From Methanobacteriota archaeon (GTDB lineage: Archaea; Thermoplasmatota; Thermoplasmata; Thermoplasmatales; ARK-15), in assembly GCA_009758405.1 (NCBI GenBank), contig WSBC01000024.1, forward strand, positions 25,463 through 89,462: a stretch of DNA of 64,000 nt, written 5' to 3'. How positions within the stretch are numbered: the first letter of the stretch is position 1; each line of letters opens with the position of its first letter. This document shows, one piece after another, positions 10,741-58,121 of this stretch. The translations under genes and the position numbers were made by a program. Below the pieces are notes generated by a model, which was given only the letters and a program-made list of their open reading frames with translations, ran no database searches and was not told where the DNA came from.

Positions 10741-10755
10741 GTTTTTTGTTATATC

Positions 10756-31777: not shown

Positions 31778-33252
<1,475 letters not shown>

Positions 33253-33500
33253 TTTAATAGGGAGTATGAAAATTCTGGCCACAGGTTTCACCCTTACCAT
33301 CCATGTCAGATCTGAAATTAATTTTATTCAGATCCCCATCATTATGCGCAAATATGGAACTGGACCCTTCATTGTATGGATGCTTCATCCATAATCCAGG
33401 ACCACACCTTTATCTATTTGCGCCTTGGTATTCAATTGTAATAATGTCCCCATATTTATTTGTTTCGATCCTTTTTAAAAATATATAAAAATAAAAAAAT

Positions 33501-36500
33501 TTAAAAAATATTTCTTGTTGCAGGCGTTGCTAAAACGAGTGATAGATTAAATAATCCAGGCACATTCTTTGCATCATTTTTAATATTTAGAGGCAGTACT
33601 ATTTTGGGAACATTGTAGTTTTGGTCATGTCCGGTTATAGATGTAGTAGGTTTATAACCGATAGTATATATGTTGGGGTAGGAGTTATCATTATAGAGTG
33701 TTCCACCGGAGTACCAGTAATCCTGGACATAATTCTTTGAAGAGGAAGAAGGAGATGATGTATATCCCCACTGTACACTGCCAGATGCCTGGTATACGTT
33801 TAGATAGTATGTTTTACCACCAGTCAATGATATTGTTGAAATAGTTGTATTATACCATAATTTGCTGCTTGAAACACTCACTGTTGTGTTGGCTAGAACA
33901 TCAGCCTTCCAGAGAGATGTTCCAATGCTGAACTTAATGCTTCCACTTCCAGATAGATAGAGAGTAACAAAGTTAACATTAACGGTTGAAGAACCCACAG
34001 TGAAGGCCTCAGCCTCAGGTAGAGAATATGTAGAGATTGATGATGAGTTAACATAGGAATAGACCTTAACAGTTGTTGTTGAAGAGGATGCGGTGAATGT
34101 TATGGCCTGGTTAACATTAGCTCCATTGACAGTTATGGTACCAGAGGAGGGGCTTGCTGTATACCCACTAACAGAACCGACGGTGAATGAATATGAACCG
34201 TTAGCTATGCCAGTATAGCTTATTGTTGTTGAGGTTGATGATTTTGCATTCCCGTTGAATGTAACAGACCATGAGGTGCCTGAGGGCAATCCACTTTCAG
34301 TGAATGTTACTGTATATGTTGTGGGTGTACTTGAGGTACCCTTATACCCAATAGTATATATGTTGGGGTAGGAGTTATCATTATAGAGTGTTCCACCGGA
34401 GTACCAGTAATCCTGGACATAATTCTTTGAAGAGGAAGAGGGAGATGATGTATATCCCCACTGTACACTGCCAGATGCCTGGTATACGTTTAGATAGTAT
34501 GTTTTACCACCAGTCAATGATATTGTTGAAATAGTTGTATTATACCATAATTTGCTGCTTGAAACACTCACTGTTGTGTTGGCTAGAACATCAGCCTTCC
34601 AGAGAGATGTTCCAATGCTGAACTTAATGCTTCCACTTCCAGATAGATAGAGAGTAACAAAGTTAACATTAACGGTTGAAGAACCCACAGTGAAGGCCTC
34701 AGCCTCAGGTAGAGAATATGTAGAGATTGATGATGAGTTAACATAGGAATAGACCTTAACAGTTGTTGTTGAAGAGGATGCGGTGAATGTTATGGCCTGG
34801 TTAACATTAGCTCCATTGACAGTTATGGTACCAGAGGAGGGGCTTGCTGTATACCCACTAACAGAACCGACGGTGAATGAATATGAACCGTTAGCTATGC
34901 CAGTATAGCTTATTGTTGTGGTGGTCGATGATTTTGTATTCCCGTTGAATGTAACAGACCATGAGGTACCTGAGGGCAATCCACTTTCAGTGAATGTTAC
35001 TGTATATGTTGTGGGTGTACTTGAGGTACCCTTTACAATCTGTGTGAAGTTCCATGCATAGAATGTTCCCCATCCGGTTGGGAAATCCCATCCAACCTTT
35101 GCAGGATTGTGATATCCTGGAGGATTTTGTGTAACATCAAAGAATGGCTTTAAAGAGTATGTTGTCTCATTTGCACCTATTTTATAAAGTAAGGGATCTA
35201 TAAAACCAAACTTCTGATTTAAGTAGGCAGACATACTTGCAACAATTCCAGCAACAACAGGTGATGCGACAGATGTACCTCCAACACTATTCCAGGCACC
35301 ATTTACATAAATGAGAGTATTGTTTGCTATTGCCGCTATATCTGCAACATTCCTTCCTGATGTTGATCCTCCATTATTTATTACTGCAGGTATATTCTGC
35401 CAGGATGGAGTTGGATAGGCGGAGCTTACACCACTTGTTGTTCCCCAATAATCACCATTGCTATTAGGGGAACTTATAGTATCATACCATACCACCTGCT
35501 TCTTGATTACATTTGTTAATGGAGTTCCTGCACCATTGTAATAACCTGCATTACCATTCAGTGTAAGTGTTGTTCCGCCCACTGCAACAAAACCAAATGT
35601 ATTTTGAGCATCATTTGCGGGATTACTTTGTGTTGTGGTATCGCCATCATCACCGCTCGATGCGAATACTGAAGTTCCTGTTGCCTCCATCTGTTTTACA
35701 TAGTTATCTGTTGTTGCTGAAGTGGTGCTATCTCCATCTCCCCAAGAGTTTGAAACGGCAATAAGGTTTGAAAGACCTGCAGCTATTGCATACTCGGGAT
35801 CTGGGAAGTTTGTTTCACTAGGACCTCCTCCACTGCCACCAGGTCCATAAACACATACAAGGCTTGCCCCTGGTGCAAGTGTCCCTACCATCTCTAGATC
35901 AAGTGTATTCTCAACATTAACACCATTTGCGTCATTTGATGCACTTGACCCAGGTGCCACTGTTCCAGATGTACCCTTTCCAGTTACACTGATTGTTCCT
36001 ACTATCTGTTGCTCCCATGCGGGTAGAACGTTTTTAAAATATGTTTGTATATCTGTGGGGTTATATGGTGCTACTTGGTTACCTGATGAATCAGTCCCTT
36101 CCCAAAGTATTGTTGCAATTGTATAGCCAGTTGTGAAATAATGTGTGGATGATGAAGCCGCAGAGGCTGAGCCATTATAAAGCTGTACTACTTGATAAGC
36201 CTTCTGCAGATCCGCACCACTGATCAACTGTACACCATTTGAGTTAATGAAATTACTTCCAAAATTATTCTGTAATTTAACATTTATATGGTATTTATAC
36301 GCATTGGTGAGACCACTAATTCCCTTTATGTACTGTGCTATATTATATGGAAGCTGCACAGGAGTGAGAGGTGCAAAATAAACATCCTTAAAATGTGGAT
36401 TATTCGATTTAAAAAGACCAAACTTTGTGTGAAAGATCTGCTCTGCCTTCCATATTGGGACATTGTTTAGGAATATTGCTAGATGGTATGGTCCCGCTGA

Positions 36501-36887
36501 AACATCTACACCCTGGGACTTGAAGTAATTATAAACAACATTGAACTCATAATCACCAGGAGAATACATTTGAACGAACTGATCCTTTGTCAAGAATTTA
36601 TGGAACATTGGTGAATTTATATCCTCCACCTGTGCGAGATAACTGTCCAATTGCTGTTCATTCCTAATTTTAAGGGCTATTGAAATATCTATCTTTACAT
36701 TTTGATCAGGAACTCCTATCTGCTGGCCTGCAAGTAGTCTTGTATCAAAGCCTGTGTTTATACTAACCAAATTATTTCCATGGGCCATCGATGCAAAGGA
36801 GGATGCCAAAAAGATACCTACGAAAATCACTACAAGCAATTTGACATAATGCCTCATGATTACATGCCTCCTGATAGCCTTTATCAA
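33501..36887 (-). CDS. S53 (sedolisin) family secreted protease with C-terminal tandem repeat domains
   Basis: Pro-domain FHKFLTKDQFVQMYSP; catalytic E/D region NVENTLDLEMVGTLAPGA; Ser motif GGTSVASPVVAG; Ca-site-like FFDVTQNP...VGWDFPTGWG; signal peptide. Confidence 0.93.
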   Translation of the reverse strand: MIKAIRRHVIMRHYVKLLVVIFVGIFLASSFASMAHGNNLVSINTGFDTRLLAGQQIGVPDQNVKIDISIALKIRNEQQLDSYLAQVEDINSPMFHKFLTKDQFVQMYSPGDYEFNVVYNYFKSQGVDVSAGPYHLAIFLNNVPIWKAEQIFHTKFGLFKSNNPHFKDVYFAPLTPVQLPYNIAQYIKGISGLTNAYKYHINVKLQNNFGSNFINSNGVQLISGADLQKAYQVVQLYNGSASAASSSTHYFTTGYTIATILWEGTDSSGNQVAPYNPTDIQTYFKNVLPAWEQQIVGTISVTGKGTSGTVAPGSSASNDANGVNVENTLDLEMVGTLAPGASLVCVYGPGGSGGGPSETNFPDPEYAIAAGLSNLIAVSNSWGDGDSTTSATTDNYVKQMEATGTSVFASSGDDGDTTTQSNPANDAQNTFGFVAVGGTTLTLNGNAGYYNGAGTPLTNVIKKQVVWYDTISSPNSNGDYWGTTSGVSSAYPTPSWQNIPAVINNGGSTSGRNVADIAAIANNTLIYVNGAWNSVGGTSVASPVVAGIVASMSAYLNQKFGFIDPLLYKIGANETTYSLKPFFDVTQNPPGYHNPAKVGWDFPTGWGTFYAWNFTQIVKGTSSTPTTYTVTFTESGLPSGTSWSVTFNGNTKSSTTTTISYTGIANGSYSFTVGSVSGYTASPSSGTITVNGANVNQAITFTASSSTTTVKVYSYVNSSSISTYSLPEAEAFTVGSSTVNVNFVTLYLSGSGSIKFSIGTSLWKADVLANTTVSVSSSKLWYNTTISTISLTGGKTYYLNVYQASGSVQWGYTSSPSSSSKNYVQDYWYSGGTLYNDNSYPNIYTIGYKGTSSTPTTYTVTFTESGLPSGTSWSVTFNGNAKSSTSTTISYTGIANGSYSFTVGSVSGYTASPSSGTITVNGANVNQAITFTASSSTTTVKVYSYVNSSSISTYSLPEAEAFTVGSSTVNVNFVTLYLSGSGSIKFSIGTSLWKADVLANTTVSVSSSKLWYNTTISTISLTGGKTYYLNVYQASGSVQWGYTSSPSSSSKNYVQDYWYSGGTLYNDNSYPNIYTIGYKPTTSITGHDQNYNVPKIVLPLNIKNDAKNVPGLFNLSLVLATPATRNIF
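33650..35031. repeat. Tandem duplication, two copies at 690-bp offset, within the S53 protease gene
   Basis: atagtatatatgttggggtagg at 33661 and 34351; agaccttaac at 34061 and 34751; gtgggtgtacttgaggtaccctt at 34321 and 35011: all offset 690 bp. Confidence 0.95.
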
Positions 36888-38682: not shown

Positions 38683-38985
38683 ATGATAAACCTAGATTTT
38701 GAATCTGAAAAAGTTTATAACACAGGGAGAGCACCCATAAACATTCATGCATTTAAGGTACCTTTGGGGAAGGTGCATATAATTAAGGAAAGGTGTAAGG
38801 AGTGTGGTTACTGTTGGACCTACTGTCCAAAGGAGGTACTTGAGAAGTCAGATTATGTAAACAAAAATGGATACCATCCCCCAAGGATTAAGAAGGGAAA
38901 AGAAAGTGCTTGTGTAGCATGTGGTATGTGTGAGGCAATATGCCCAGACTTTGCAATTTTTGTGGAGGAGATAAAAAATGAATAA
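38683..38985 (+). CDS. korD: 2-oxoacid:ferredoxin oxidoreductase, delta (ferredoxin) subunit 1
   Basis: CKECGYCWTYCP and CVACGMCEAICP; start of korDABC order. Confidence 0.9.
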   Translation: MINLDFESEKVYNTGRAPINIHAFKVPLGKVHIIKERCKECGYCWTYCPKEVLEKSDYVNKNGYHPPRIKKGKESACVACGMCEAICPDFAIFVEEIKNE

Positions 38986-40120
38986 AAAGCTGATTAAACC
39001 TGGAAATTATTTTATGAATGGTAATTTTGCATGCGCAGAAGCTGCTCTCATAGCTGGTATGAATTTCTATGCAGGATATCCAATTACGCCATCAAGTGAA
39101 ATTATGGAAAGGTTAAGTTACAGGCTGCCCCAGGTAGGTGGTCATTTTATTGAAATGGAGGATGAGATTGCAAGTATGGCAGCAATTGTAGGTGCCTCTA
39201 ATGCTGGTGCAAAGGCAATGACAGCCACATCAGGTCCAGGTTTTTCATTAATGCAGGAAAATATTGGTCTTGCAGTGATAACTGAGACCCCAGTAGTAAT
39301 AGTTGATGAAATGAGAGGAGGGCCCTCAACAGGATTGCCCACAAGAGTAGGTCAGGGTGATGTAATGCAGGCCATGTGGGGTACACATGGTGATCATGAG
39401 GCTATAGCATACGCACCAAGTAGTGTACAGGAGATGTTTGATTTAACAATAAAGGCCTTCAATACTGCTGAGAAATACAGAAATCCTGTTATTGTTCTTA
39501 CTGATCAAGTAATAGGGCATATGTCTGAAAGACTATTGGTAAAGAATTATGAAGAATATGAAGTAATTGAAAGGGAAATACGCAAATTTCCAGACCCAAT
39601 TGGAAAGGTACATGACTTTTCTATTGATTATGTTCCAATGGTAATTGCGGGTAAAGGTTTCCATTACAATATAGATAGTCTTACACATGATGAGATGGGA
39701 TATCCCTCCAACGACCCTAAGATAGAGGAGATGATGGTAAGGCATCTCGTTGAGAAGATAAGGAAAAATGAAGATAATATTGTTGAATATAAAGAATACT
39801 TGACTGATGATGCGGAGGTATTGATAATTGCCTATGGTATTACTGCAAGATCATCCATTGAGGCAATAAGGAAACTTAGAGAAAAGGGTATAAGAGCAGG
39901 AATGCTAAGACCGATTACCCTATGGCCAATACCAAAGAGAAAAATAGAAAGGCTGAGTGAAAAAATTCATATTATTTTTGTGCCTGAGATAAATTTTGGT
40001 CAGTATTCACATGCAATAAGAGAGCATACAAAAGTACCAGTTAAAGAGATACATTTTCCGCCAGGAGCAGTTCCAGATCCAAAAATAATCATAAGAAATA
40101 TTGAGGGTGATGCAACTTGA
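38978..40120 (+). CDS. korA: 2-oxoacid:ferredoxin oxidoreductase, alpha subunit 1
   Basis: GMNFYAGYPITPSSEIMERL, KAMTATSGPGFSLMQENIG, RGGPSTGLPTRVGQGD. Confidence 0.95.
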   Translation: MNKKLIKPGNYFMNGNFACAEAALIAGMNFYAGYPITPSSEIMERLSYRLPQVGGHFIEMEDEIASMAAIVGASNAGAKAMTATSGPGFSLMQENIGLAVITETPVVIVDEMRGGPSTGLPTRVGQGDVMQAMWGTHGDHEAIAYAPSSVQEMFDLTIKAFNTAEKYRNPVIVLTDQVIGHMSERLLVKNYEEYEVIEREIRKFPDPIGKVHDFSIDYVPMVIAGKGFHYNIDSLTHDEMGYPSNDPKIEEMMVRHLVEKIRKNEDNIVEYKEYLTDDAEVLIIAYGITARSSIEAIRKLREKGIRAGMLRPITLWPIPKRKIERLSEKIHIIFVPEINFGQYSHAIREHTKVPVKEIHFPPGAVPDPKIIIRNIEGDAT

Positions 40121-40956
40121 TTGAAGAAGCGATACATCCAAAGGATATTTATTTAAGAAGTGATCGTTTTCCACATATATGGTGTCCAGGATGTGGTCTG
40201 GGTATTGTACTCAAAAGCTATGTAGATGCGATAAGTAAGCTCGATATACCCCTTGATCACCATGTTTTAGTTTCTGGTATAGGTTGTACAGCCAGGCTTC
40301 CAGGTTATGCGAACGTTGATTCCTATCACACTACCCATGGGAGGGCCATTCCATTTGCAACAGGTCTGAAGATAGTCAATCCTGAGCTTCAGGTAACAGT
40401 AATAAGTGGAGACGGAGATCTTTTCAACATTGGTGGAAATCACATAATCCATGCGGCAAGGAGGAACATGGATATCCTTGTAGTTTGTGTTAATAACTTC
40501 AATTATGGTATGACTGGTGGGCAGCACGGTGCTACTACCCCAGAGGGTGCTAGGACATCAACCACCCCCTATGGTAACATAGAACATTCATTCAATCTAC
40601 CTTATATTATGGCATCTTTAGGTGCATCCTATGTTGCCAGATGGACATCACTACATGTTAGACAGCTTACAAAATCAATAATGAAGGCGATGAAAATGAA
40701 GGGTTTCTCATTTATTGAGGTAATTTCACCATGCCCGCCCAATTTTGGTAAATACAACAAATTTAATGATGGTCTTTCACAGATGGAATTCTTCTATGAA
40801 AATTCTGTGCTTGATAACAATGCTGATCTTAGTGAGGCATATATAGACTTTAGTGGAAAGAGACCATTGATTGTTGGTGAATTTGTTCAGAGGATAAGGC
40901 CATCCTACATTGAGTTAGAAAGAGACCTTATTAAGAGGGCAATGGAGGAACCATAA
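40117..40956 (+). CDS. korB: 2-oxoacid:ferredoxin oxidoreductase, beta (TPP) subunit 1; TTG start
   Basis: HIWCPGCGLGIVL, SGIGCTARLPGY, GDGDLFNIGGNHIIHAARRN TPP motif. Confidence 0.95.
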   Translation: MIEEAIHPKDIYLRSDRFPHIWCPGCGLGIVLKSYVDAISKLDIPLDHHVLVSGIGCTARLPGYANVDSYHTTHGRAIPFATGLKIVNPELQVTVISGDGDLFNIGGNHIIHAARRNMDILVVCVNNFNYGMTGGQHGATTPEGARTSTTPYGNIEHSFNLPYIMASLGASYVARWTSLHVRQLTKSIMKAMKMKGFSFIEVISPCPPNFGKYNKFNDGLSQMEFFYENSVLDNNADLSEAYIDFSGKRPLIVGEFVQRIRPSYIELERDLIKRAMEEP

Positions 40957-41477
40957 TGAAAAAGGAAATTCGTGTATATGGTTATGGGGGTCAAGGTATA
41001 ATTACCCTTGGCCATTTGATTGGTGAAAGCGCTGTTGAAGATAAAAAAGAGGTAATAATGACTGAGGAGTACAGTCCCTACATAACAGGAGGATGGTCAA
41101 GGGCTGACCTGATAATATCAGATGAGGCAATTGATTATCCTTTAATCTCCGGAATAGATTACCTAATTACACTTTCACAGGAGGGGCTTGATGTTAATAT
41201 AAACGAGGTAAAAAATGATGGCATGATATTCCTTGACAGTGATCTGGTTAACTATTCTGATTTCAAGGGTAATTTTATTCCAGTCAAGGCAAAAAAAATA
41301 TCAGAAAAACTTGGAAATCCAAGATCGATGAATATGGTAATCCTTGGTGTATTTGTTTCAAGAACAGGAATAGTATCAAAAGATGCTGCAATAAACGCTA
41401 TTAAGAAAAGGTTTCCTAAATATGCTGATGAGAATGTAAAGGCATTTGAGGTGGGATTCAGGGGTGAAGAGTATTGA
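40956..41477 (+). CDS. korC: 2-oxoacid:ferredoxin oxidoreductase, gamma subunit
   Basis: YGYGGQGIITLGHLIGESAV...TEEYSPYITGGWSRADLIIS. Confidence 0.92.
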   Translation: MKKEIRVYGYGGQGIITLGHLIGESAVEDKKEVIMTEEYSPYITGGWSRADLIISDEAIDYPLISGIDYLITLSQEGLDVNINEVKNDGMIFLDSDLVNYSDFKGNFIPVKAKKISEKLGNPRSMNMVILGVFVSRTGIVSKDAAINAIKKRFPKYADENVKAFEVGFRGEEY

Positions 41478-44400
41478 ACGATAGTGTTATGGTTATTGGT
41501 GGAGGTATTGCTGGAATACAGGCATCTTTAGATCTTGCGGATATGGGTGTCAAGGTAATTCTTGTTGAAAAGTCACCTGCAATAGGAGGAAAGATGGCAG
41601 CCCTTGACAAAAACTTCCCTACACTTGATTGCTCCATATGTATAGAGGCGCCTAAAATGAGTGATGTGATGCATAACCCAAATATTACTGTTCTAACTTT
41701 GGCCGAGATTAAAGGTGTAAGTGGTAAAGATGGGGATTTTGATGTTGAGGTTTATCAAAGACCCAGGTTTGTAACAAGTGAATGTACTGCCTGTAATTTG
41801 TGCGTTGAAGTTTGCCCACAGTTAACCAAGAATGAATTTGATATGAACCTAGCGGCAAGAAAAGCCATTTATACACCATTCTCACAGGCTGAACCAAATA
41901 CCTATGTTATAGATATAGATACTTGTTTGAACAAGCCACCCAATTATCTTCCCTGCAATAGATGTACCGAGACCTGTGGTCCAGGAGCAATAGATTTTAG
42001 TATGAGGCCAAAAACATACAGGTTTAGGGTAGGTGCAATAATAGTTGCAACGGGTTTTGATCTTCTTAATCCTGAACTACTTCCAGAGTTTGGTTATGGG
42101 AGGGATCCTGATGTTCTATCCTCATATGAATTTGAAAGGCTTTTAAACCCTGCAGGACCTACTGAAGGTGAGCTGATCAGGCCCAGCGATGGGAAACACA
42201 TTGAAAAACTTTCATTTATTTTATGTGTAGGATCAAGGGATCAGAGGTATGTTCCATACTGTTCCAGAACTTGCTGTATGTATTCTGTGAAGGAGGCTAT
42301 ACAGGCAAGGGATCATGGGATAAAGGACGTAACTATATTCTATATGGATATAAGGGCATATGGAAAGGGCTTTGATGCATTCTATGAAAGATCGAAGAAT
42401 GAGGGCGTAAGATATGTAAGATCAAGGCCAAGGTATGCTGGAAAAGAGGATGGAAAAATAAAGATAAGATATGAGGATACTGAAACTGGCGAGATAAGAG
42501 AGGATCATTTTGATGCAGTTGTCCTTGCAACAGCCTCAATACCAAGCCGGGGCACAAAGGAGCTTTCTAAAATATTAGGAATTGAGCTTAACGAATATGG
42601 ATTTTTCAAAACCTCATTTACAAATCCTGTCCAATCCACAAGGGAAGGTATATTTATTGCAGGCTGTGCCTCAGGTCCTAAGGATATACCAGATAGTGTG
42701 ACTGAAGCATCTGCAGCAGCATCTGCTGCCCAGAGGTACATAAATAAAAGGGAATGGATTGAAATGGAAAAGGCTGAGCCTTTGCCAATATCAAATGAAC
42801 CCAGAATAGGCGTTTTCCTTTGTGATTGCGGCACGAACATTGCTGGAGTAGTGAATGTTAAGGAAGTGGCTGAAAAAGTGAAATCAATTCCTAATGTTGT
42901 TTATGTTGAGGAAAACAAGTATACCTGTGCTGGAAGTACTCAGGACAATATTGTTAAAAAAATTAGGGAATATAATCTTAACAGGGTAATTGTAGCTGCA
43001 TGCTCCTTAAAAACGCATGGTGTCACATTCCAGAGGGTCTTGTCAAGGGCAGGTTTAAATCCATACCTTCTCGAGATGCCAAACATAAGGAATCTAGATT
43101 CATGGGTACACAAAAATGAGAAGGAGAATGCCACCAAAAAGGCATATGAAATGATTTTAATGTCAGCATACAAGTCTGTGTATCTTAAGCCACTTGAAGA
43201 TCTTGAATTTCCAGTAACAAAAAGGGCGTTAATAATTGGTGGAGGTCCTGCAGGGCTATCAAGTGCAATTGCACTTGCAAGGGCAGGGATTGAAACACAC
43301 CTTGTTGAAAGGGAGGAGAAACTAGGTGGTATGCTAAATGAATTGACACACATTTCACCATATGGAACAGATCCAAAAGAGCTCTTGAACTATCTTTTGA
43401 ATGAGGTAAAAAATCTAGGTGTAAAACTGCATCTTTCAACAAGGATAGAAAAGGTATCCGGTTTCATCGGGAATTTCAATGTAATACTTTCAGACAAAAG
43501 TACTTTGGATGTAGGTGCGCTTATTATAGCAACAGGTGCGGATCCTTATTTACCGAAGGAGTTTGGTTATGGGAATAATGAGAGAGTGATAACAACACTT
43601 GATATTGAAAAAAATATGGATATAATTAAGGAAAATAACATTACCATAATCTCCTGTGTAGGTTCAAGGTCAAATGGAAGGGGATGTTCAAGGTTCTGCT
43701 GTTCAACTATGATGAACCAGGCAATAAAACTGAGAGAAAGAGGGAAAAATGTTAGAGTAATTTACAAAGACATTAGAACATATTCTATGTATGCTGAGGA
43801 TCTGTATCTGAAGGCAAGCAATATGGGGGTGCAATTTTTCAGATATGACCAGGATAGTCCACCGGATAAGGCAATAAAGTTTGAAAATGGCAATGTTTCA
43901 TTCAAGGATCACCTTACTGGAAATGATATTTCAATACCGACAGATATTCTGGTACTTAATATAGGCCTTTCCCCAAGGGATGATGATATTTTCTCACAGC
44001 TAACATTGTCGAAGGATGAGAATGGATTTTTACTTGAGCTCCATCCAAAGCTGGGACCTGTGGAGAATGCAATAGCGGGTATTTATCTTGCAGGAACATC
44101 ACAGGGGCCCAAGGATGTGTATGAATCCATGGTCCAGGGATTTGCAGCTGCATCTAAGGCAGCTTCTGTACTATTCAAGGACAAGATTAAAAAGGAACCC
44201 ATTGTTGCATCAATTGATACCAACAAATGCATAAAATGCATGAGATGTGTTAATGTATGTCCATATGGTGCAATAACAGGTGAATTGACCAAATGGATAA
44301 AACATAATCCTGCCCTATGCCAGGGCTGTGGGGACTGTGTTGCAGAATGTCCTGTTGATGCAATAACAATTCCCAATTTTACTGATAGAGATATACTGGC

Positions 44401-44857
44401 GCAGATAGATGCAGCCACTGAGGTTGAGCCAGAAAAGAAAGTCATTGTTTTTACCTGCAACTGGTGTTCATATGCAGGTGCTGACCTGGCAGGAATATCT
44501 AAGATACAGTATCCTTCAAGTGCAAGGTTAATCAGGGTAATGTGCTCAAGTAGAATATCTCAGAAACTTGTAATGCACGCATTTGAAAGGGGTGCCGCAG
44601 CTGTTGCAGTCACCGGCTGCCACATAGGTGATTGCCATTACAATTATGCCAACAGGGATACGGAAAAAAGGTTTGAACGCTGGAGGAAATTCCTGGCAGC
44701 AAGGAATATTAATCCAGAAAGGTTGCAATTGTACTGGGTGAGTGCTGCCGAAGGAATAAGGTTTGCCCAATTTATTAAAAAAATGGACGAATTTATTAAA
44801 ACAATTCCCAAGGAGGAGATTGAAAGTACACCAAAGAAGTTGAGGGGATCAAAATGA
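41474..44857 (+). CDS. Heterodisulfide reductase A-like fusion: FAD module, then HdrA N-domain and FAD module, 2x[4Fe-4S], and MvhD domain; TTG start
   Basis: Two FAD Rossmann motifs (VMVIGGGIAGIQASLDLADMG; ALIIGGGPAGLSSAIALARAG); LDCSICIEAPKM; FLCDCGTNIAGVV; ferredoxin CIKCMRCVNVCP/CQGCGDCVAECP; MvhD-like FTCNWCSYAGADLAG...CSSRI...GCHIGDCHY. Confidence 0.92.
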   Translation: MNDSVMVIGGGIAGIQASLDLADMGVKVILVEKSPAIGGKMAALDKNFPTLDCSICIEAPKMSDVMHNPNITVLTLAEIKGVSGKDGDFDVEVYQRPRFVTSECTACNLCVEVCPQLTKNEFDMNLAARKAIYTPFSQAEPNTYVIDIDTCLNKPPNYLPCNRCTETCGPGAIDFSMRPKTYRFRVGAIIVATGFDLLNPELLPEFGYGRDPDVLSSYEFERLLNPAGPTEGELIRPSDGKHIEKLSFILCVGSRDQRYVPYCSRTCCMYSVKEAIQARDHGIKDVTIFYMDIRAYGKGFDAFYERSKNEGVRYVRSRPRYAGKEDGKIKIRYEDTETGEIREDHFDAVVLATASIPSRGTKELSKILGIELNEYGFFKTSFTNPVQSTREGIFIAGCASGPKDIPDSVTEASAAASAAQRYINKREWIEMEKAEPLPISNEPRIGVFLCDCGTNIAGVVNVKEVAEKVKSIPNVVYVEENKYTCAGSTQDNIVKKIREYNLNRVIVAACSLKTHGVTFQRVLSRAGLNPYLLEMPNIRNLDSWVHKNEKENATKKAYEMILMSAYKSVYLKPLEDLEFPVTKRALIIGGGPAGLSSAIALARAGIETHLVEREEKLGGMLNELTHISPYGTDPKELLNYLLNEVKNLGVKLHLSTRIEKVSGFIGNFNVILSDKSTLDVGALIIATGADPYLPKEFGYGNNERVITTLDIEKNMDIIKENNITIISCVGSRSNGRGCSRFCCSTMMNQAIKLRERGKNVRVIYKDIRTYSMYAEDLYLKASNMGVQFFRYDQDSPPDKAIKFENGNVSFKDHLTGNDISIPTDILVLNIGLSPRDDDIFSQLTLSKDENGFLLELHPKLGPVENAIAGIYLAGTSQGPKDVYESMVQGFAAASKAASVLFKDKIKKEPIVASIDTNKCIKCMRCVNVCPYGAITGELTKWIKHNPALCQGCGDCVAECPVDAITIPNFTDRDILAQIDAATEVEPEKKVIVFTCNWCSYAGADLAGISKIQYPSSARLIRVMCSSRISQKLVMHAFERGAAAVAVTGCHIGDCHYNYANRDTEKRFERWRKFLAARNINPERLQLYWVSAAEGIRFAQFIKKMDEFIKTIPKEEIESTPKKLRGSK

Positions 44858-45975
44858 TTGTAGAAGATACAGGTTCAAAAATGCTTGAGATAATGGGTAT
44901 GGGAACAACACTCTGCTATCAATGTGGAGAGTGCACTGTTTCTTGTCCGGTGGGAGAATTTACCGGGGAAAAGATAAGTGTTAGAAGTATTATAAGGGCG
45001 GCACAGATTGGACAGGAGTACTATGATAACATTTGGGCATGCGCCACATGCAAACTATGCGAAAACTATTGTCCAAGAAATGTTGACATCGTTAATATAA
45101 TTCTGGCCGTGAGAACAATGGCCTTTTCAAAAAGAAAGGCACCTGAAAAGATTGAAAAGGTAATATGGGACATATTTGAAAATGGTAATCCGTGGGGTGG
45201 GAAAAAGAAAGAAAGGGCTAAATGGGCTGAGGGAATGGAAATCAAAGATGCAAGCGAGGGTGTGGATGTTTTATTGTATGTTGGATGCGAAGCGGCCTAT
45301 GATCCTAAACAGCATGGAAATGTAAGATCAATAGCTGAGATATTGAGGAGGGCCGGTGTTAATTTTGGAATTCTAGGAAACAATGAGAGATGCTGTGGTG
45401 AGCCACTAAAAAATGCAGGTGAGATTGAATATCTTGAAGAGCTCGTTTCTCAAAACATAGACCAATTTGAAGGTACGGGGGCAAAAATAATAGTTACTGT
45501 TTCACCCCATTGCTCAAAAATGTTTAAGGAAGTCTATAGGAAGGCAGGCCTAAAGATTGAGGTGATGCATTATACAGAATATTTAAATAGACTTTATTCA
45601 GAGGGGTTGATTAAGTTTAAAGTTGGAAATAGTGAAAATGTTACATATCACGATCCATGTCTTCTAAGCAGGGGTGAAGGAGTAATAGAAGAGCCAAGGG
45701 ATCTATTGAAGGCATCCGGTTTTAAGATTGTTGAGATGAAGGATTATGGTAAGAACTCAATTTGCTGTGGAGGAGGAGGTAACAGGATGTTTCTTGAATT
45801 CAAGGGAAAAAGGCTGGCAGATGTCAGAACAGATCAGGCCATTGAAACGGGTACAGGGATTATTGTTACCGCCTGTCCATACTGTAACATGAATTTACAT
45901 GATAGTGTGAAAACAAGGGCAATTAATATTAAGGTAATGGAACTTGCCGAACTTCTTAAGGAGAGGATAGAATGA
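44854..45975 (+). CDS. HdrD-like (HdrC-HdrB fusion) Fe-S oxidoreductase
   Basis: CYQCGECTVSCP and CATCKLCENYCP; CCG segments ERCCGEPL and HDPC...CCGGGGN...CPYC. Confidence 0.9.
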   Translation: MIVEDTGSKMLEIMGMGTTLCYQCGECTVSCPVGEFTGEKISVRSIIRAAQIGQEYYDNIWACATCKLCENYCPRNVDIVNIILAVRTMAFSKRKAPEKIEKVIWDIFENGNPWGGKKKERAKWAEGMEIKDASEGVDVLLYVGCEAAYDPKQHGNVRSIAEILRRAGVNFGILGNNERCCGEPLKNAGEIEYLEELVSQNIDQFEGTGAKIIVTVSPHCSKMFKEVYRKAGLKIEVMHYTEYLNRLYSEGLIKFKVGNSENVTYHDPCLLSRGEGVIEEPRDLLKASGFKIVEMKDYGKNSICCGGGGNRMFLEFKGKRLADVRTDQAIETGTGIIVTACPYCNMNLHDSVKTRAINIKVMELAELLKERIE

Positions 45976-46943
45976 TCAATTCCTGGGTATATATTGAGAG
46001 TGAAGGATCTTCCATTGAAGATGTGTCATTAGAAATAATAGGAAGGTTGAATGAGCTCAAGAACGATATTGATCTAAAGATTACAGGTTTTTATCTTGGG
46101 ACAAAGCCAGGAGATTTACCAAGAATTGCAATTTCCTATGGTGTAGATCATTTCATATTTTTAAAAAGTGATCTATTTTCATTCTACGATTCCCAGACAT
46201 TTGTTAACGGAATATCTGATCTGGTAAGGGAAAGAAATCCTGATATAATGCTCTTCGGTGCCACCTATCAGGGAAGGGATTTTGCAGGAAGGCTTGCTGC
46301 AAGGCTTAAAACAGGTCTTGCAGCTAATGCAATTTCACTAAACATCGATAAAAAAGGTCTACTTTACACAGGTGTTCCTGGGTATGGTGGGAGATTCATA
46401 GCAGAGATAGTTAACATGAAAGCTAGGCCCCAGATTTCAACAGTAAGACAGGGAATATTTAAGAAAATGGAAAGGGATGAATCCAGAAGTGGCGAAATTG
46501 AGATAGTAGATGTAGAACTTAAAGGTTTTAATCAAAAACTTAAACTTTTGGAGAGAAAAAAATTGGATATAAAAGATATTACAAAATCCGAAAGGGTAGT
46601 GATTATAGGTAATGGTGCAGGCAATAATTTAAAACCAATTGAAGAATTTGCAAAGTTGATTGGTGCAGATATTGGTGTTACTAGGCCTGTTGCAGATAGA
46701 GGCCTTGCACCGAGGGATATCCAAGTAGGATCCACCGGTGTATCATTAAATTCCAAGATTGCAATAATCTTTGGTTCCAGTGGTTCCAACCATTTCGTCT
46801 CGGGTATAGAAAGATGTAAATTTGTGATCTCCGTTGATATAGACAAGAATTCAAATATATTCAATTACTCTGATTATTGTGTTGTAGCTGACATGTTCAA
46901 ACTTCTGCCTTTTTTAATAAAGAGAATGGGTGGTGATTTATGA
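45972..46943 (+). CDS. etfA: Electron transfer flavoprotein alpha subunit, divergent
   Basis: GATYQGRDFAGRLAARLKTGLAANAI; C-terminal FAD domain GVTRPVADRGLAPRDIQVGSTG. Confidence 0.88.
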   Translation: MINSWVYIESEGSSIEDVSLEIIGRLNELKNDIDLKITGFYLGTKPGDLPRIAISYGVDHFIFLKSDLFSFYDSQTFVNGISDLVRERNPDIMLFGATYQGRDFAGRLAARLKTGLAANAISLNIDKKGLLYTGVPGYGGRFIAEIVNMKARPQISTVRQGIFKKMERDESRSGEIEIVDVELKGFNQKLKLLERKKLDIKDITKSERVVIIGNGAGNNLKPIEEFAKLIGADIGVTRPVADRGLAPRDIQVGSTGVSLNSKIAIIFGSSGSNHFVSGIERCKFVISVDIDKNSNIFNYSDYCVVADMFKLLPFLIKRMGGDL

Positions 46944-47731
46944 GGAATATAATTGTTTGCGTTAAGGTAGTGCCAAAAACGGAGGATGTAACATTTGATC
47001 CAGTCACAAAAACACTTGATAGATCAAAGGCAGAAAATCAAATTAATGAAGCTGATAAGAATGCTATTGAGGCTGCTATTGTTTTGAAGGAAAAATACGG
47101 GGGAAAGGTAATACTCCTTTCCATGGGTCCAATGTTTTTCGAACAATTCTTGAAGATTGGCATTGCCATGGGCGCGGATGATGCTATATTACTGTCAGAC
47201 AGAGCATTTGCAGGTGCGGATTCATATCCCACTGCCCTTACACTTGCCACTGCCATTAAAAAAATTGGTGATTATGATCTAATAATATGTGGAGAAGAAT
47301 CTTCAGATGCGGGTCTAGGGCAGGTCCCTTCACAGATAGCAGAATTTCTGGATTTACCGCAGGCACTTTTCGTTTCTTCAATAGAAGTGAGTGATGGATT
47401 AATCAAGGTAAAAAGGAGCATAAGGGGAGGTCATGAGATTGTAGAGATGCCTATGCCTGCAGTAATAAGTGTTGAATTAGGAATGAACCAGCCAAGGTTC
47501 CCAGACTTTAAAAGAAAAAGATGGGCAGACAAAGAGTTTAAGTTAAAAATATGGAATATGAAAGACCTTAACCTTGAGGAGGGTATGGTGGGGCTAAAAG
47601 GCTCATACACCTTTGTAAACAGATTCATAGAAACAATACCACCCCAAAGGAAAAGGGAGTTTATTGAAGGATCTCTTGAAGAACAGGCGAATAAATTATA
47701 TGAAATAATTATGAAAATTTTATCTTCATAG
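46940..47731 (+). CDS. etfB: Electron transfer flavoprotein beta subunit
   Basis: IIVCVKVVPKTEDV...INEADKNAIEAAIVLKEKYGGKVILLSMGP; IICGEESSDAGLGQVPSQIAEFL. Confidence 0.92.
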   Translation: MRNIIVCVKVVPKTEDVTFDPVTKTLDRSKAENQINEADKNAIEAAIVLKEKYGGKVILLSMGPMFFEQFLKIGIAMGADDAILLSDRAFAGADSYPTALTLATAIKKIGDYDLIICGEESSDAGLGQVPSQIAEFLDLPQALFVSSIEVSDGLIKVKRSIRGGHEIVEMPMPAVISVELGMNQPRFPDFKRKRWADKEFKLKIWNMKDLNLEEGMVGLKGSYTFVNRFIETIPPQRKREFIEGSLEEQANKLYEIIMKILSS

Positions 47732-47813
47732 AAATGCAATCAAGGTTAATTAAAACAATCTTTTTTTATTTCCATTATTTATCTCAAGACTTGTTTATTT
47801 TTATAGGTAATTA

Positions 47814-47843
47814 ATTTATTTTAATTTTAAAATTAAAATAAAT
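47814..47843. repeat. Perfect 30-bp AT-only palindrome between etfB and the second korD
   Basis: atttattttaatttt|aaaattaaaataaat read directly; 15-nt arms, no mismatch. Confidence 0.9.
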
Positions 47844-47891
47844 GTATTTCTAATGTTTAGAAAATAATGAAAAATAGGATAGATTTATATT

Positions 47892-48146
47892 TTGAACATC
47901 ATTTCAGGTGTTATGTATCCGATCATAAACAAAGATTATTGCAAAGGCTGCAATTTATGTGTAGAAGTTTGTCCCAAAAGGGTTTTTGAAAAGGGGATGG
48001 AAATAACTCATAGGGGTTATTATGCTGCAGTGGTAAAGTATAAAGAACAATGCACAAATTTCAAGATTCCGAATGGGGGCAAGCCACTTTGTGAAATTTG
48101 CTGGCTTACCTGCCCGGAACATGCAATTGAGTTTAAGGAGGATTAA
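47892..48146 (+). CDS. korD: 2-oxoacid:ferredoxin oxidoreductase, delta (ferredoxin) subunit 2
   Basis: CKGCNLCVEVCPKRV and CEICWLTCPEHAIEF. Confidence 0.88.
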   Translation: MNIISGVMYPIINKDYCKGCNLCVEVCPKRVFEKGMEITHRGYYAAVVKYKEQCTNFKIPNGGKPLCEICWLTCPEHAIEFKED

Positions 48147-48148
48147 AT

Positions 48149-49222
48149 ATGTTAACACCAGGTAGATATTTTTTGGCTGGAAATATAGCAGCTGCTGAGG
48201 CAGCACTTATTGCCGGATGTAGATTCTATGCAGGCTACCCTATTACACCATCAAGTGAACTCATGGAACATATGGCTAAAAGAATGCCTGAGGAAAATGG
48301 GGTTTTTATACAAATGGAGGATGAGTTATCAGCAATTTCTGCCATTATTGGCGCAGCATGGACAGGTAAAAAGGCAATGACAGCCACATCAGGTCCAGGT
48401 TTTTCATTAATGCAGGAAAATATAGGGTATGCGGCAATGACAGAAACACCCATAGTCATTGTTGATGTTATGAGGGGTGGACCATCTACGGGACAGCCCA
48501 CTATTGTGGCACAGGGTGATGTTTTGCAATCCAGATTTGGATCCCATGGTGATTATGAAACAATTGTTCTTGCACCAAACTCCGTTCAGGAGCTTTTTGA
48601 CCTTACCATAAGGGCATTCAATCTTGCATCAATCTTCAGGAATCCTGTTATAGTTCTTTCGGATGCAGAACTTGCACATATGGTGGAAAAGATAGAGGTG
48701 GCACAAAAGTATGATATAGTAGAATTCAACCAGGTAGAGGTTGATTTGGTACCTTCTTTTGTACCTTTAGGATATGGATTCAAGGTTGCTGTCACCGGTC
48801 TTACACATAATTTTAAAGGTTACCCTATTACAAACGATGTTAAGGTTCACAGGGAACTTGTTACAAGACTTGTTGATAAGATTATAAAAAATGAGCCAAC
48901 GATTTCAGATGTTGAGATAATAAATCCAGAAGCTGAAACTATAATTGTCTCATACGGTATTTCATCAAGGGCAGCTTACCCAATAATAAAGGATAATAAG
49001 GATGTTGGGCTATTCAGGCCAAGGACACTCTGGCCATTCCCTGAAAGCAAATTTAAGGAAATAGTTAAGGGGAAAAGGGTGATTATACTTGAAATGAACC
49101 TGAGAGGATATGCAATTGAGGTGGAAAGGGTTGGAAGGAAATACGGTGGAAAGGATTTTGAAACAATTCACATAATAGGTGGAGAAGTGCCAAAACCATC
49201 CCATATTGAGGAGGTGCTATAA
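48149..49222 (+). CDS. korA: 2-oxoacid:ferredoxin oxidoreductase, alpha subunit 2
   Basis: GCRFYAGYPITPSSELMEHM, KAMTATSGPGFSLMQENIG, RGGPSTGQPTIVAQGD. Confidence 0.95.
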   Translation: MLTPGRYFLAGNIAAAEAALIAGCRFYAGYPITPSSELMEHMAKRMPEENGVFIQMEDELSAISAIIGAAWTGKKAMTATSGPGFSLMQENIGYAAMTETPIVIVDVMRGGPSTGQPTIVAQGDVLQSRFGSHGDYETIVLAPNSVQELFDLTIRAFNLASIFRNPVIVLSDAELAHMVEKIEVAQKYDIVEFNQVEVDLVPSFVPLGYGFKVAVTGLTHNFKGYPITNDVKVHRELVTRLVDKIIKNEPTISDVEIINPEAETIIVSYGISSRAAYPIIKDNKDVGLFRPRTLWPFPESKFKEIVKGKRVIILEMNLRGYAIEVERVGRKYGGKDFETIHIIGGEVPKPSHIEEVL

Positions 49223-49223
49223 C

Positions 49224-50054
49224 ATGGAGTTTTTTGATTTTTATAGGAAGGATAGGTGGCCTCATCAATTCTGTCCAGGTTGTGGCCTGGGTACAATAAT
49301 GAACTGTCTCTATAAGGCCTTTAATGATCTTAACATTGACATTGATAAAACTGTTTTTGTAAGCGGTATAGGATGTACAGGTAGGGTACCTGGTTATATA
49401 AATGCCGATTCCCTCCACACTACCCATGGGAGGGCTATTGCATTTGCAACTGGGATTAAGTTGTCTAGGCCCGACCTAAATGTAATAGTGATAAGTGGTG
49501 ATGGTGATCTTTTTGCAATAGGCGGAAACCATATAATACATGCTGCAAGAAGAAATATAGATTTAAAGGTGATTGCCGTAAACAATGCCAACTATGGGCT
49601 TACAGGTGGGCAGATGGCACCAACAACACCATACAATATGATTACTACCACTACACCATATGGCCAGAGGGAATATCCATTTGCGCTTGCTGAACTTATT
49701 GCTGCTGCAGGTGCAAATTATGTTGCTAGATGGACCACTGCACATCCGAACCAGCTAGTAAAAAGTATTAAAGAGGCAATGCAAACAAAGGGATTCTCCT
49801 TTATTGAGGTAATATCACAGTGCCCCGTAAACTTTGGAAGAAGAAATAAAATGGGGGATCCTGTGTTTCATCTCAGGTGGATTAAGGATCATTCTGTACC
49901 AATCTCAAAGATGACCTTTGATATAAATTCACCCTATGATATTGTGGATCTTAACACAAAGGGAATCTATATCATAGGGGATCTTGTTAAAAGGAACAGA
50001 TCACCATATGGGGAGATTGAAAAGGAGATAGAGGTAAAGGGACCCCAGGAATAA
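49224..50054 (+). CDS. korB: 2-oxoacid:ferredoxin oxidoreductase, beta (TPP) subunit 2 (start chosen at MEFFDFYRK)
   Basis: HQFCPGCGLGTIMN, SGIGCTGRVPGY, GDGDLFAIGGNHIIHAARRN. Confidence 0.95.
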   Translation: MEFFDFYRKDRWPHQFCPGCGLGTIMNCLYKAFNDLNIDIDKTVFVSGIGCTGRVPGYINADSLHTTHGRAIAFATGIKLSRPDLNVIVISGDGDLFAIGGNHIIHAARRNIDLKVIAVNNANYGLTGGQMAPTTPYNMITTTTPYGQREYPFALAELIAAAGANYVARWTTAHPNQLVKSIKEAMQTKGFSFIEVISQCPVNFGRRNKMGDPVFHLRWIKDHSVPISKMTFDINSPYDIVDLNTKGIYIIGDLVKRNRSPYGEIEKEIEVKGPQE

Positions 50055-55300: not shown

Positions 55301-56371
55301 ATGGAAGGCAAATATATTGCCATTATAGTTGTTTTAGTACTAATAATTGCTTCAGTAGGATGGGTAATCTATTATCAAGCACAAAATGAAAATAAGATTA
55401 CATTAAATGTCTATGCAGCAGGTAGTCTAGCAGTTCCATTTACAGAACTAAAGGATCAATTTGAATCCCTTTATCCCAACATAACCGTTCAGATAAAATT
55501 CTCTGGCAGTGTAAGCCTAATGAGGGAAATAATGACAAATGAATCTGTGGATGTCTACGCATCAGCTGACTGGACCATAATACCACAGATGTATCCAAAG
55601 TACGCATCCTTTGATATAGGTTTTTCATTCAACCAGTTAGCCCTTGTTTACAATAATCAGACACTAAGTTATCTCCATATATCTCAAATAAATGATAGCA
55701 ACTGGTATAAGATACTTGCAATGCCAAATGTTAAATTTGGATTTTCGGATGGTAATCTAGATCCTGCTGGATATAGTGCTTTAATGGTCATGGCACTTGC
55801 AAATATCTACTATCAAAAAAATGTATTTCAAAACCTTGTTGAGAATTATACAAATATAAAGCTTGTAGAAAATAATTCATCCTACTATATTGAGCTACCC
55901 CCCACCAATTTTCTTAAATTCAATACATCAAAAATAATGATAGAGCCTAAGGAGACAGATTTATTACCCGCACTTGAAAATAACCAAATACAGTTCCTCT
56001 GGATATATAAGAGCGATGCAGTACAGAAAAAACTTCCATATCTTCAACTTCCCGATGAATTGAATATGGGAAGTGCCAATTCTTCCATAATAAATAACTA
56101 TTACAGTAAGGTCTTTGTATACATAGGTTATAATTCAACATCCCAGAAGCTTATTGAATGCAAGCCCATAATATATGGAATAACAATTCCTTCAACTGCT
56201 CTTCATATATGGGCTGCAGAGATGTTTATAAAATATCTACTTGAGGTAAATGGACAGAGGATAATGAGTAATGCAGGACAGACACCTATATATCCAGCCT
56301 ATGTAGACAATATAGCCAACGTGCCAGAAGTATTAAGGGGTGATGTTTCTTCCACGGGTACAATGCCATGA
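55301..56371 (+). CDS. wtpA: Tungstate/molybdate ABC transporter substrate-binding protein
   Basis: NVYAAGSLAVPFTELKDQFE, SADWTIIPQMYPKYASF, KFGFSDGNLDPAGYSALMVMALANIYY; N-terminal lipoprotein/TM anchor. Confidence 0.92.
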   Translation: MEGKYIAIIVVLVLIIASVGWVIYYQAQNENKITLNVYAAGSLAVPFTELKDQFESLYPNITVQIKFSGSVSLMREIMTNESVDVYASADWTIIPQMYPKYASFDIGFSFNQLALVYNNQTLSYLHISQINDSNWYKILAMPNVKFGFSDGNLDPAGYSALMVMALANIYYQKNVFQNLVENYTNIKLVENNSSYYIELPPTNFLKFNTSKIMIEPKETDLLPALENNQIQFLWIYKSDAVQKKLPYLQLPDELNMGSANSSIINNYYSKVFVYIGYNSTSQKLIECKPIIYGITIPSTALHIWAAEMFIKYLLEVNGQRIMSNAGQTPIYPAYVDNIANVPEVLRGDVSSTGTMP

Positions 56372-57153
56372 AAAATTCATTTTTATTCATTCTATTATTA
56401 TTCTCAATTTTGATGATGCTTTTTATATTGATACCTATCCTTGTACTTTATTCTTTTGTACCCTTTTTTGACTTTATCATAATTTTTTCAAATAGGAGCT
56501 TTCTGGAGACAATAAATGTGACATTTTTAGCAGGATTAATATCTACTTTCTTTATAGCAATACTTGGTATTCCTCTAGGCTATCTTATGGCAAGGACAGA
56601 TTTTCCTGGAAAAAATTTTGTTCAAGGCCTCATAGACCTGCCCCTTGTGGTCCCGGATACAGTGGCAGGATTGATTATTTTTCTTACCTTCTATTCTCAA
56701 GGCATATTGGGAGCACCACTCTCGAGGGCAGGCATCAACTTTGTAAATACTCTTTATGGAATAGTAGTGGCAATGATGTTCGTAGGTGCACCATTTATGA
56801 TTAATACATCAAAATCAGGATTCCTTTCCGTTGATCCAAAGCTCGAAAAGGTCTCCCTAAGTCTTGGTGCTTCAAAGATTTCAACATTTTTTAATGTTAC
56901 ACTCCCCCTTAGTTTAGATTCAATAGTTAATGGCCTTGTAATGACTTGGGCAAAGGGTGTTTCATCCTTCGGCTCAATAATAGTTATTGCCTATTTTCCA
57001 ATGGTGGCACCTACATATATATACAATCAATTTCTTTTATTCGGAACTGATGCCAGTGCAATTGCTGCTGGTGCATTTTTATTGATAACACTGATAATTT
57101 TCGCAATATCAAGATTTATTACAACAAAAATGATGAGATGGCTGAGAAAATGA
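56368..57153 (+). CDS. wtpB: Tungstate/molybdate ABC transporter permease
   Basis: Permease with GIPLGYLMARTDFPGKNFVQGLIDLPLVVPDTVAGL and EAA-like KVSLSLGASKISTFFNVTLPLS. Confidence 0.92.
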   Translation: MKNSFLFILLLFSILMMLFILIPILVLYSFVPFFDFIIIFSNRSFLETINVTFLAGLISTFFIAILGIPLGYLMARTDFPGKNFVQGLIDLPLVVPDTVAGLIIFLTFYSQGILGAPLSRAGINFVNTLYGIVVAMMFVGAPFMINTSKSGFLSVDPKLEKVSLSLGASKISTFFNVTLPLSLDSIVNGLVMTWAKGVSSFGSIIVIAYFPMVAPTYIYNQFLLFGTDASAIAAGAFLLITLIIFAISRFITTKMMRWLRK

Positions 57154-58121
57154 GATTAGAATTAAAGGGCGTTGAAAAAAATCTCGGTAAATTCCATCTC
57201 GGACCAATAAATTTGGATATAGATGAAAATATTGTTATACTGGGCCCCACCGGGGCTGGAAAGACAACATTACTGGAGATAATTGCTGGATTTATAAAAC
57301 CTGATAAGGGAAGAATATTATTTATGGGTAAGGATTTTACAAACATACCACCTGAAAAAAGAAGAATTGGTCTACTTTACCAGGATTATCAGCTCTTTCC
57401 ACATATGAATGTAAGGAAAAATATTTCCTATGGACTCAGGATGTCTAATATTGGAAAGGAAAATATAGAAAAGAGCGTTGAAGAAATTTCAATTAAACTC
57501 GGTATTATGAATTTACTTGATAGAAATGTATACAATCTGAGCGGTGGAGAAAAACAGAGGGTCGCACTTGCAAGGGCACTTGTGATAGAACCTCAGATAC
57601 TACTTTTGGACGAGCCATTTTCAGCACTTGATGAAGAAACAAAACATACGCTTATGGATGAGGTAAGGAAAATAATAGATGATGTGAAATCCCTTGTGAT
57701 CTATGTCATGCATGATCAGGAGGATGCCTATTTGATGGGAAAAAATTTTGCAATTTTATTCGGGGGTAAAATAGTTTCAGTAGGAAAAAGGGATGATGTT
57801 TTTAGAAGGCCAGCTAATGTAGCCATTGCAAAATTTCTTGGATATAAAAATATATTTACAAGGGAGGATTTAAAATCAATTGGTCTTGACCTTGAGGGTG
57901 AATATTTCACAATAGATGAGAAGGATATTCTAATAAATGAAAATGGTAAGATAAAATTAAAGGGCATAGTTGAAGGCTATGAGTATCTCAGGGATAAGAG
58001 CAGAATAACAATAAAAGTAAATGGAATAAAAATAGAGAAAAAAGTGGATGGTATTTTTTCGTTTGAAAGAGAAATTAAAATCTCCTTTGACCCTGAAAAA
58101 ATAATCCCTCTAAAGGGATAA
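57138..58121 (+). CDS. wtpC: Tungstate/molybdate ABC transporter ATPase
   Basis: GPTGAGKTTLL Walker A, LSGGEKQRVALARAL signature, LLLDEPFSALD Walker B. Confidence 0.94.
   Translation: MAEKMRLELKGVEKNLGKFHLGPINLDIDENIVILGPTGAGKTTLLEIIAGFIKPDKGRILFMGKDFTNIPPEKRRIGLLYQDYQLFPHMNVRKNISYGLRMSNIGKENIEKSVEEISIKLGIMNLLDRNVYNLSGGEKQRVALARALVIEPQILLLDEPFSALDEETKHTLMDEVRKIIDDVKSLVIYVMHDQEDAYLMGKNFAILFGGKIVSVGKRDDVFRRPANVAIAKFLGYKNIFTREDLKSIGLDLEGEYFTIDEKDILINENGKIKLKGIVEGYEYLRDKSRITIKVNGIKIEKKVDGIFSFEREIKISFDPEKIIPLKG

Follow-up and report, generated by a model that had tools for sequence, protein, structure and literature searches.

Organization of the locus

The sequence analysed here, referred to as the window, is a stretch of 64,000 nucleotides from a Methanobacteriota archaeon (assembly GCA_009758405.1, contig WSBC01000024.1, positions 25,463 to 89,462; part of contig C10 in our numbering), whose metagenome-assembled draft genome belongs to the order Thermoplasmatales in the broad sense, measures 1.30 Mb and is 88.8% complete. 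On the + strand, window positions 38683-47731 hold a block of eight genes, korD-korA-korB-korC-hdrA-hdrD-etfA-etfB, for a 2-oxoacid oxidoreductase (Kor), two proteins related to heterodisulfide reductase (Hdr) and an electron-transfer flavoprotein (ETF). An earlier note on this DNA had described eleven same-strand genes, these eight and a second kor set, with overlapping junctions. All eleven frames were found on the + strand at the positions given in this text, and their assignment by Pfam and NCBIfam profiles agrees with the gene names; within the block all seven junctions (korD/korA, korA/korB, korB/korC, korC/hdrA, hdrA/hdrD, hdrD/etfA and etfA/etfB) overlap, by 1-8 bases. The gene set, its linkage, the domains and the ligand residues described below are read directly from the sequence.

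The block opens with korD1 (38683..38985), the first gene of the conserved operon, encoding the two-[4Fe-4S] ferredoxin subunit of the oxidoreductase (PF00037, 4e-10; NF042987, 1.7e-12, below the cut-off). It is followed by korA1 for the alpha subunit (38978..40120; PF01855, 3e-64; NF006412, 511 bits against a cut-off of 411), korB1 for the thiamine-diphosphate beta subunit (40117..40956; PF02775, 2e-33; NF007207, 9e-73, below the cut-off) and korC1 for the gamma subunit (40956..41477; PF01558, 7e-34), such that alpha, beta, gamma and delta subunits are all present in the profile searches. The 2-oxoglutarate, branched-chain and generic models overlap on these proteins, and although the 2-oxoglutarate and generic models score best, the profiles give no single substrate assignment. 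The next gene, hdrA-flpD (41474..44857), encodes an HdrA2-like protein of 1127 aa (NF040770, 1167 bits, cut-off 1100; FlpD domain PF02662, 1e-45), and the block continues with hdrD (44854..45975), etfA (45972..46943) and etfB (46940..47731). No hydrogenase or formate dehydrogenase subunits are encoded in the operon. Scans for consensus promoters and terminators returned nothing above chance, with a scan model that is bacterial for a host that is archaeal.

Conservation of the gene order

A synteny check, as the earlier note had suggested, found the linkage to be conserved, which runs counter to the first of the refuting conditions listed in that note. Searches were run on 60 relatives first and then more widely (class, 400 genomes; phylum, 390 genomes), and the distribution data apply to Thermoplasmatota genomes. 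Among the 60 relatives, HdrD orthologues with >47% identity occur in a dozen genomes, and the neighbourhoods fetched around them show korD-korA-korB-korC-hdrA-hdrD-etfA-etfB in identical order and orientation. The wider searches contributed G328, two members of family f25 (G100 with the full block; G163, where the contig runs out) and, from other classes, G404 and G406, each with the full block. In total, 16 genomes spread over at least six families of the phylum carry all eight genes in this order (f1, f3 and f6 of the Thermoplasmatales, f25 of the same class, f36 and f38 of other classes), at identities down to about 37-55%. This count includes G004, where a frameshift divides hdrD, and G028, which has masked bases in hdrD; the clusters of G002 and G163, although cut short, agree with the order. 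As the complete order is kept in 16 genomes while the flanking genes vary among families, the linkage of the eight genes is far beyond chance. Correlations of 0.89-0.98 between the protein distances of the eight genes are inflated by shared species history, and we do not use them as proof.

The distribution is patchy, since among the relatives searched the HdrD orthologue is absent from G001, a genome of the same genus, and from Thermoplasma-like and Aciduliprofundum-like genomes. The closest named relative found, and the sole return of a scan of genome contigs, is the metagenome-assembled genome 'Aciduliprofundum sp. isolate ARK-15' (HdrD 73% identity). Individual genomes carry additional redox genes next to the operon. 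A fused EtfB-EtfA with a Rieske-type ferredoxin lies beside it in G048 (L051, 5896-7946), with Lys at the bifurcation-Arg position of the fused EtfA. Past etfB in G006 (L048:3316-7107) lie genes for a formate-dehydrogenase-like molybdopterin protein and two sulfhydrogenase-like subunits, assigned by sequence appearance; this group is not kept beside the operon in other genomes. In family f22 of the class, three loci (L088, L089 and L090) contain korDABC-hdrA-mvhD-hdrD-hdrA-hdrD; this Kor-Hdr variant has two Hdr modules, and no etf lies within the stretch.

Domain architecture of the HdrA-FlpD fusion

The HdrA protein consists of two fused HdrA copies and a C-terminal FlpD. Copy 1 (residues 2-427) matches the HdrA core from residue 140 onward in the alignment to 5odc_A; it has the inserted ferredoxin domain, C56 as the equivalent of Cys197 and the bifurcation lysine (K273), and lacks the N-terminal domain. 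This domain is assigned to residues 441-570, with a match over 441-595, and belongs to copy 2 (residues 580-900), which has no Cys197 and N748 where the lysine would be. The C-terminal part (846-979) includes a C-terminal ferredoxin domain (910-970) and is followed by FlpD (985-1111). The two copies are therefore complementary for Cys197 and the N-terminal domain, as in the fused HdrA3/4 of anaerobic methanotrophic archaea (ANME) and the HdrA of Moorella, where this complementarity marks self-contained heterodimers (Chadwick et al., PMC9012536).

In the methanogen M. thermolithotrophicus, Lys409 of HdrA touches N5 of the bifurcating flavin adenine dinucleotide (FAD) (PMC6405883, PMC10734219). 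The corresponding residue here, K273, is kept without exception across 12 HdrA orthologues, in which the copy-2 position is Asn or Gln and the FlpD cysteines are invariant as well. The AlphaFold model of HdrA superimposes on 5odc_A with a template modelling (TM) score of 0.75 by target, at a mean predicted local distance difference test (pLDDT) value of 72 and with low confidence in the inserted ferredoxin region.

HdrD as a putative ETF relay

In the 373 aa of HdrD, only Fer4 and CCG domains were matched (an HdrC-type two-cubane domain plus a CCG pair) and no membrane domain, compared with 660-690 aa for the EtfD/EMO-like proteins of the order. By profile, its closest solved relative is mycobacterial EtfD, the ETF:menaquinone oxidoreductase (1e-58), which is also the best match of its fold (9ojn, TM 0.74; 0.48 for HdrB). 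The ligands of the D2 noncubane cluster, C269, C304, C305, C341, C344 and H219, correspond to EtfD C637, C672, C673, C709, C712 and H583, with 6/6 present, and H219 is kept in every aligned cluster orthologue; solved HdrB, in comparison, has CNGC and no His. The first CCG motif is one Cys short (S217) and is largely lost in G406 (L096). In EtfD, one of the noncubane clusters is bound by five Cys and His583 and hence non-catalytic, and FadF and DgcB, its ETF-linked relatives, are without the cysteines of the other cluster (PMC13083937). Because of the EtfD-type ligands including the non-catalytic His, the EtfD fold and the incomplete first motif, HdrD is probably a soluble ETF-docking relay and not a disulfide reductase, while its HdrC-like N-terminal half points to a capacity to dock HdrA.

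Reduction of a disulfide by HdrD, as the earlier note had envisaged, would require two complete CCG motifs, for two catalytic noncubane clusters with bridging Cys, of which one is incomplete here, and we rejected this role on the ligands (S217, H219) and the fold. A variant in which HdrD reduces a disulfide and EtfAB is itself the bifurcating ETF is accordingly very improbable, despite the homology of HdrD to HdrB/HdrC and the proximity of EtfAB to bifurcating ETFs among solved structures: S217 replaces the Cys, the motif is largely gone in L096, the His ligand is that of non-catalytic EtfD, and the essential arginine of EtfA is Val.

Loss of the bifurcation arginine in EtfAB

For both EtfA and EtfB, the nearest solved relatives are bifurcating ETFs. 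In EtfABCX, LctBCD and CarCDE, an arginine at N5 of the bifurcating FAD (R136/R140/R205) is essential (PMC10734219, PMC9232219). The EtfA proteins of the cluster form one distinct clade (support 100/99), in which the position of C. difficile R136 is Val in 14/14 sequences, against Arg in 36/37 others and Lys in one; judged from this alignment, the clade has lost the arginine needed for ETF bifurcation. The group-2 motifs of EtfB in the window are altered too, with RSKA for RxGV and GLKGSYTFV for GxxSPTxV. The equivalent of C. difficile R243, a contact to the acyl-CoA dehydrogenase in that enzyme, is Arg in every EtfA row. Bifurcation by EtfAB, which had been considered possible, is weakened by the Arg to Val exchange and the changed EtfB motifs, and we disfavour EtfAB as the bifurcating centre. 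By its residues, the FAD of HdrA copy 1 appears to be the only flavin of the set with the lysine or arginine contacting N5 that is typical of bifurcating FADs.

Possible partners in the host genome

The host genome (G000) encodes six acyl-CoA dehydrogenases, four EtfA proteins (that of the cluster and three others) and two EtfD/EMO-like proteins, one on C19 and another on C21; proteins of this type, which carry CPHC motifs, occur widely in the order. The absence of a hydrogenase holds for the window, as had been stated, but not for the genome: a second locus (L059, G000:C21:20000-39900) carries, at 4641-14511 of the locus, etfB-etfA-EMO-hdrD-hdrA-mvhD-mvhG-mvhA and a maturation protease, with the Mvh-type [NiFe]-hydrogenase confirmed by PF00374. 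A locus of the same type is present in G002 (L098). From its gene content, L059 apparently encodes an ETF-linked Hdr-[NiFe]-hydrogenase. This paralogous locus is a separate example of ETF and Hdr modules in combination, here with another donor, and as a possible case of H2-linked ETF bifurcation it deserves study in its own right. In 11 of the 15 other complete-order genomes, a search found no [NiFe]-hydrogenase (G328, G100, G404 and G406 were not searched), and a hydrogenase as mandatory partner was rejected for this reason.

Proposed mechanism and rival explanations

We give a probability of about 45% to the reading that korDABC-hdrA-hdrD-etfAB encode one three-branched electron-transfer system with HdrA as its bifurcating or confurcating centre; complex formation, bifurcation, direction, partner and substrate are inferences. 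At the low-potential port, Kor would oxidize a 2-oxoacid to acyl-CoA and CO2, and its electrons would reach the inserted ferredoxin domain of HdrA copy 1 via KorD or free ferredoxin. The FAD of this copy would split or merge electron pairs, with copy 2 completing an intramolecular HdrA 'dimer'. At the high-potential port, HdrD would relay electrons between HdrA and EtfAB, the latter serving acyl-CoA dehydrogenases. The mid-potential port would be formed by the C-terminal ferredoxin and FlpD domains, with NAD(H) as candidate partner by analogy with the MetFV-Hdr complex of Moorella, in which a fused HdrA operates with NADH (Table 1 of PMC5861303). The net direction is most likely oxidative, i.e., a confurcation in which 2-oxoacid electrons lift acyl-CoA electrons to a mid-potential acceptor, since Kor is already at ferredoxin potential and as the only donor would need no bifurcation; the breakdown of branched-chain amino acids would supply both kinds of electrons 1:1. 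The analysis supports the candidate bifurcating or confurcating system of the earlier note, and its assignment of Kor/ferredoxin and the ETF as redox partners is likely. In favour of this reading are the conserved order, the invariance of K273, the complementary HdrA copies, the EtfD-type ligands and fold of HdrD, the lost arginine of the EtfA clade, the six acyl-CoA dehydrogenases of the host and its paralogous ETF-Hdr locus; in addition, a gene for a Zn-type ferredoxin lies directly beside etfB in several relatives, and the f4 lineages have neither acyl-CoA dehydrogenases nor the cluster.

Several observations weigh against such a system. Its mid-potential partner is not encoded in the operon, the f22 relatives have kor-hdr loci without etf nearby, and the cluster EtfA scores 69 bits on the FAD-domain model, versus 117-129 for the other EtfA proteins of the host. 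Given these three other EtfA genes, the cluster ETF need not serve acyl-CoA dehydrogenases. The standard potential of 2-oxoacid oxidation is about -500 mV. Merged with acyl-CoA electrons at -10 mV, this gives an average of about -255 mV, short of NAD+ (-320 mV); NAD+ could then be reduced only at favourable concentrations, or a different acceptor would be involved.

A serious rival, though one we regard as rather doubtful, is a wire without bifurcation, in which electrons run from KorD through HdrA, HdrD and EtfAB to a membrane ETF:quinone oxidoreductase (EtfD/EMO-like) and quinone, with HdrA as a mere conductor and the operon as a 2-oxoacid:quinone route. The EtfD-like character of HdrD and its adjacent ETF genes fit such a path, as do the wide occurrence of EtfD/EMO-like proteins in the order, the one in the host (C19) and the Rieske and cytochrome b genes beside the operon in one cluster-bearing relative (L049). 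The path would be strongly exergonic, but about 0.4 V would be wasted, free ferredoxin would do, and neither the invariant bifurcation lysine of HdrA nor the invariant FlpD cysteines would be needed. The same respiratory genes, together with the acyl-CoA dehydrogenases, point to oxidative heterotrophy and make a reductive direction quite improbable. In that case a mid-potential donor at FlpD would be bifurcated, with one pair passing through HdrD-EtfAB to enoyl-CoA or quinone, while Kor would receive the second pair for reductive carboxylation to a 2-oxoacid. All three ports are conserved, and HdrA complexes are known to supply low-potential reductases, as when HdrA feeds formylmethanofuran dehydrogenase in methanogens (solved Hdr-Fdh-formylmethanofuran dehydrogenase assembly, 7bkb); however, no [NiFe]-hydrogenase was found in the searched cluster-bearing genomes outside the host genus.

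Co-regulation only, with Kor and the Etf-Hdr module as separate enzymes co-transcribed for amino-acid breakdown, seems unlikely. Operons often combine independent steps, and the modules can live apart, as in the f22 loci and in G413, where a soluble hdrD-etf is accompanied by acyl-CoA dehydrogenases but not by hdrA or kor. Against this stand the strict order of eight overlapping genes across the phylum despite changing neighbours, and the need of HdrA for partners, of which the cluster offers exactly one low and one high port.

If the confurcating system with HdrA at its centre is correct, it could, tentatively, represent a new class of complex. In it, Kor would be a low-potential subunit in its own right, and an ETF that does not itself bifurcate, acting via an EtfD-like relay, would replace the heterodisulfide, with both electron pairs of amino-acid oxidation merged in a single complex.

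Second Kor set and other features of the window

Downstream of etfB lies an AT-rich gap of 160 bases (47732..47891) with an A+T-only palindrome (47809-47848), likely the boundary between the eight-gene operon and a second kor set. This set comprises korD2 for a ferredoxin subunit (47892..48146; PF00037, 1e-8), korA2 for an alpha subunit (48149..49222; NF006412, 454 bits, cut-off 411) and korB2 for a beta subunit (49224..50054; PF02775, 1e-34), all on the + strand; for korB2, ATG 49224 is a more plausible start than GTG 49179. The second set is thus present after etfB and the palindrome, as had been described, but no korC follows korB2, and G000 and G002 are the only genomes where it adjoins the operon. 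In G004, korDAB2 sits behind a CBS-domain gene (in the window, that gene is upstream of korD1) and away from etfB, so we consider it a separate unit and rejected it as a conserved part of the system.

Elsewhere, the window encodes a large secreted pro-kumamolisin-type peptidase (33501-36887; PF09286) with repeated C-terminal modules, one of which is shared by the protein at 26407-28278. A 16S rRNA gene lies at 31778-33253; the 64-kb window showed no further rRNA gene, as would be expected if the rRNA genes are unlinked. Genes for a solute-binding protein, a permease and an ATPase (55301-58121) resemble a molybdate/tungstate transporter, by sequence appearance except for PF13531.

Significance and comparison with known systems

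In amino-acid-degrading archaea with ferredoxin-linked oxidoreductases, the joint re-oxidation of ferredoxin and ETF is often not understood. The present operon, which has persisted across an archaeal phylum, suggests one hub for the two carriers and could account for the merging of amino-acid electrons in some archaea. It also offers a clean evolutionary test, with an ETF clade that lost its bifurcation residue while linked to a flavoprotein that retains one, and with a 'heterodisulfide reductase' subunit that probably turned into an ETF relay. In line with the earlier note, which knew of no described complex with this gene set, no Kor-Hdr-Etf operon was found in the openly licensed literature (subscription papers were outside our reach), in which ETF-Hdr, Flox-Hdr and HdrA-FdhAB systems were found. 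Each module is known; their joining in one operon is new, as are the roles now assigned to HdrD and the ETF, which together amount to a new variant of HdrA-based electron bifurcation.

The Kor part has the same four-subunit set as KorDABC 2-oxoacid:ferredoxin oxidoreductases, with KorA above the NCBIfam cut-off, but differs in its conserved operon with hdrA-hdrD-etfAB. Compared to the bifurcating group 2 ETFs (Bcd-EtfAB, CarCDE, LctBCD and EtfABCX), to which both cluster subunits are nearest among solved structures, the N5 arginine is Val, the RxGV and GSPTxV motifs are altered, and EtfA is without a ferredoxin domain. With the membrane ETF-linked CCG oxidoreductases EtfD/EMO, FadF and DgcB, HdrD shares the D2 ligand set with His, the fold and the location beside etfAB; in contrast to these, it is soluble, without a membrane or heme domain, has an incomplete D1 ligand set and adjoins HdrA.

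Like ANME HdrA3/HdrA4 and the fused HdrA of Moorella MetFV-HdrABC-MvhD (PMC9012536), the operon protein combines two complementary copies in one chain. The order of the two halves is, however, reversed relative to HdrA3/4, FlpD is fused to the protein, and the partners are Kor and the ETF rather than MetFV or FdhAB. As in HdrABC-MvhAGD and HdrABC-Fdh (5odc, 7bkb), the HdrA core of the system has the bifurcation lysine and both ferredoxin domains (inserted and C-terminal) and is accompanied by FlpD/MvhD and an HdrC-like relay. Unlike those complexes, the system has neither a hydrogenase nor a formate dehydrogenase in its locus and no conserved HdrB catalytic site, and the ETF would take the place of the heterodisulfide, with Kor on the low-potential side.

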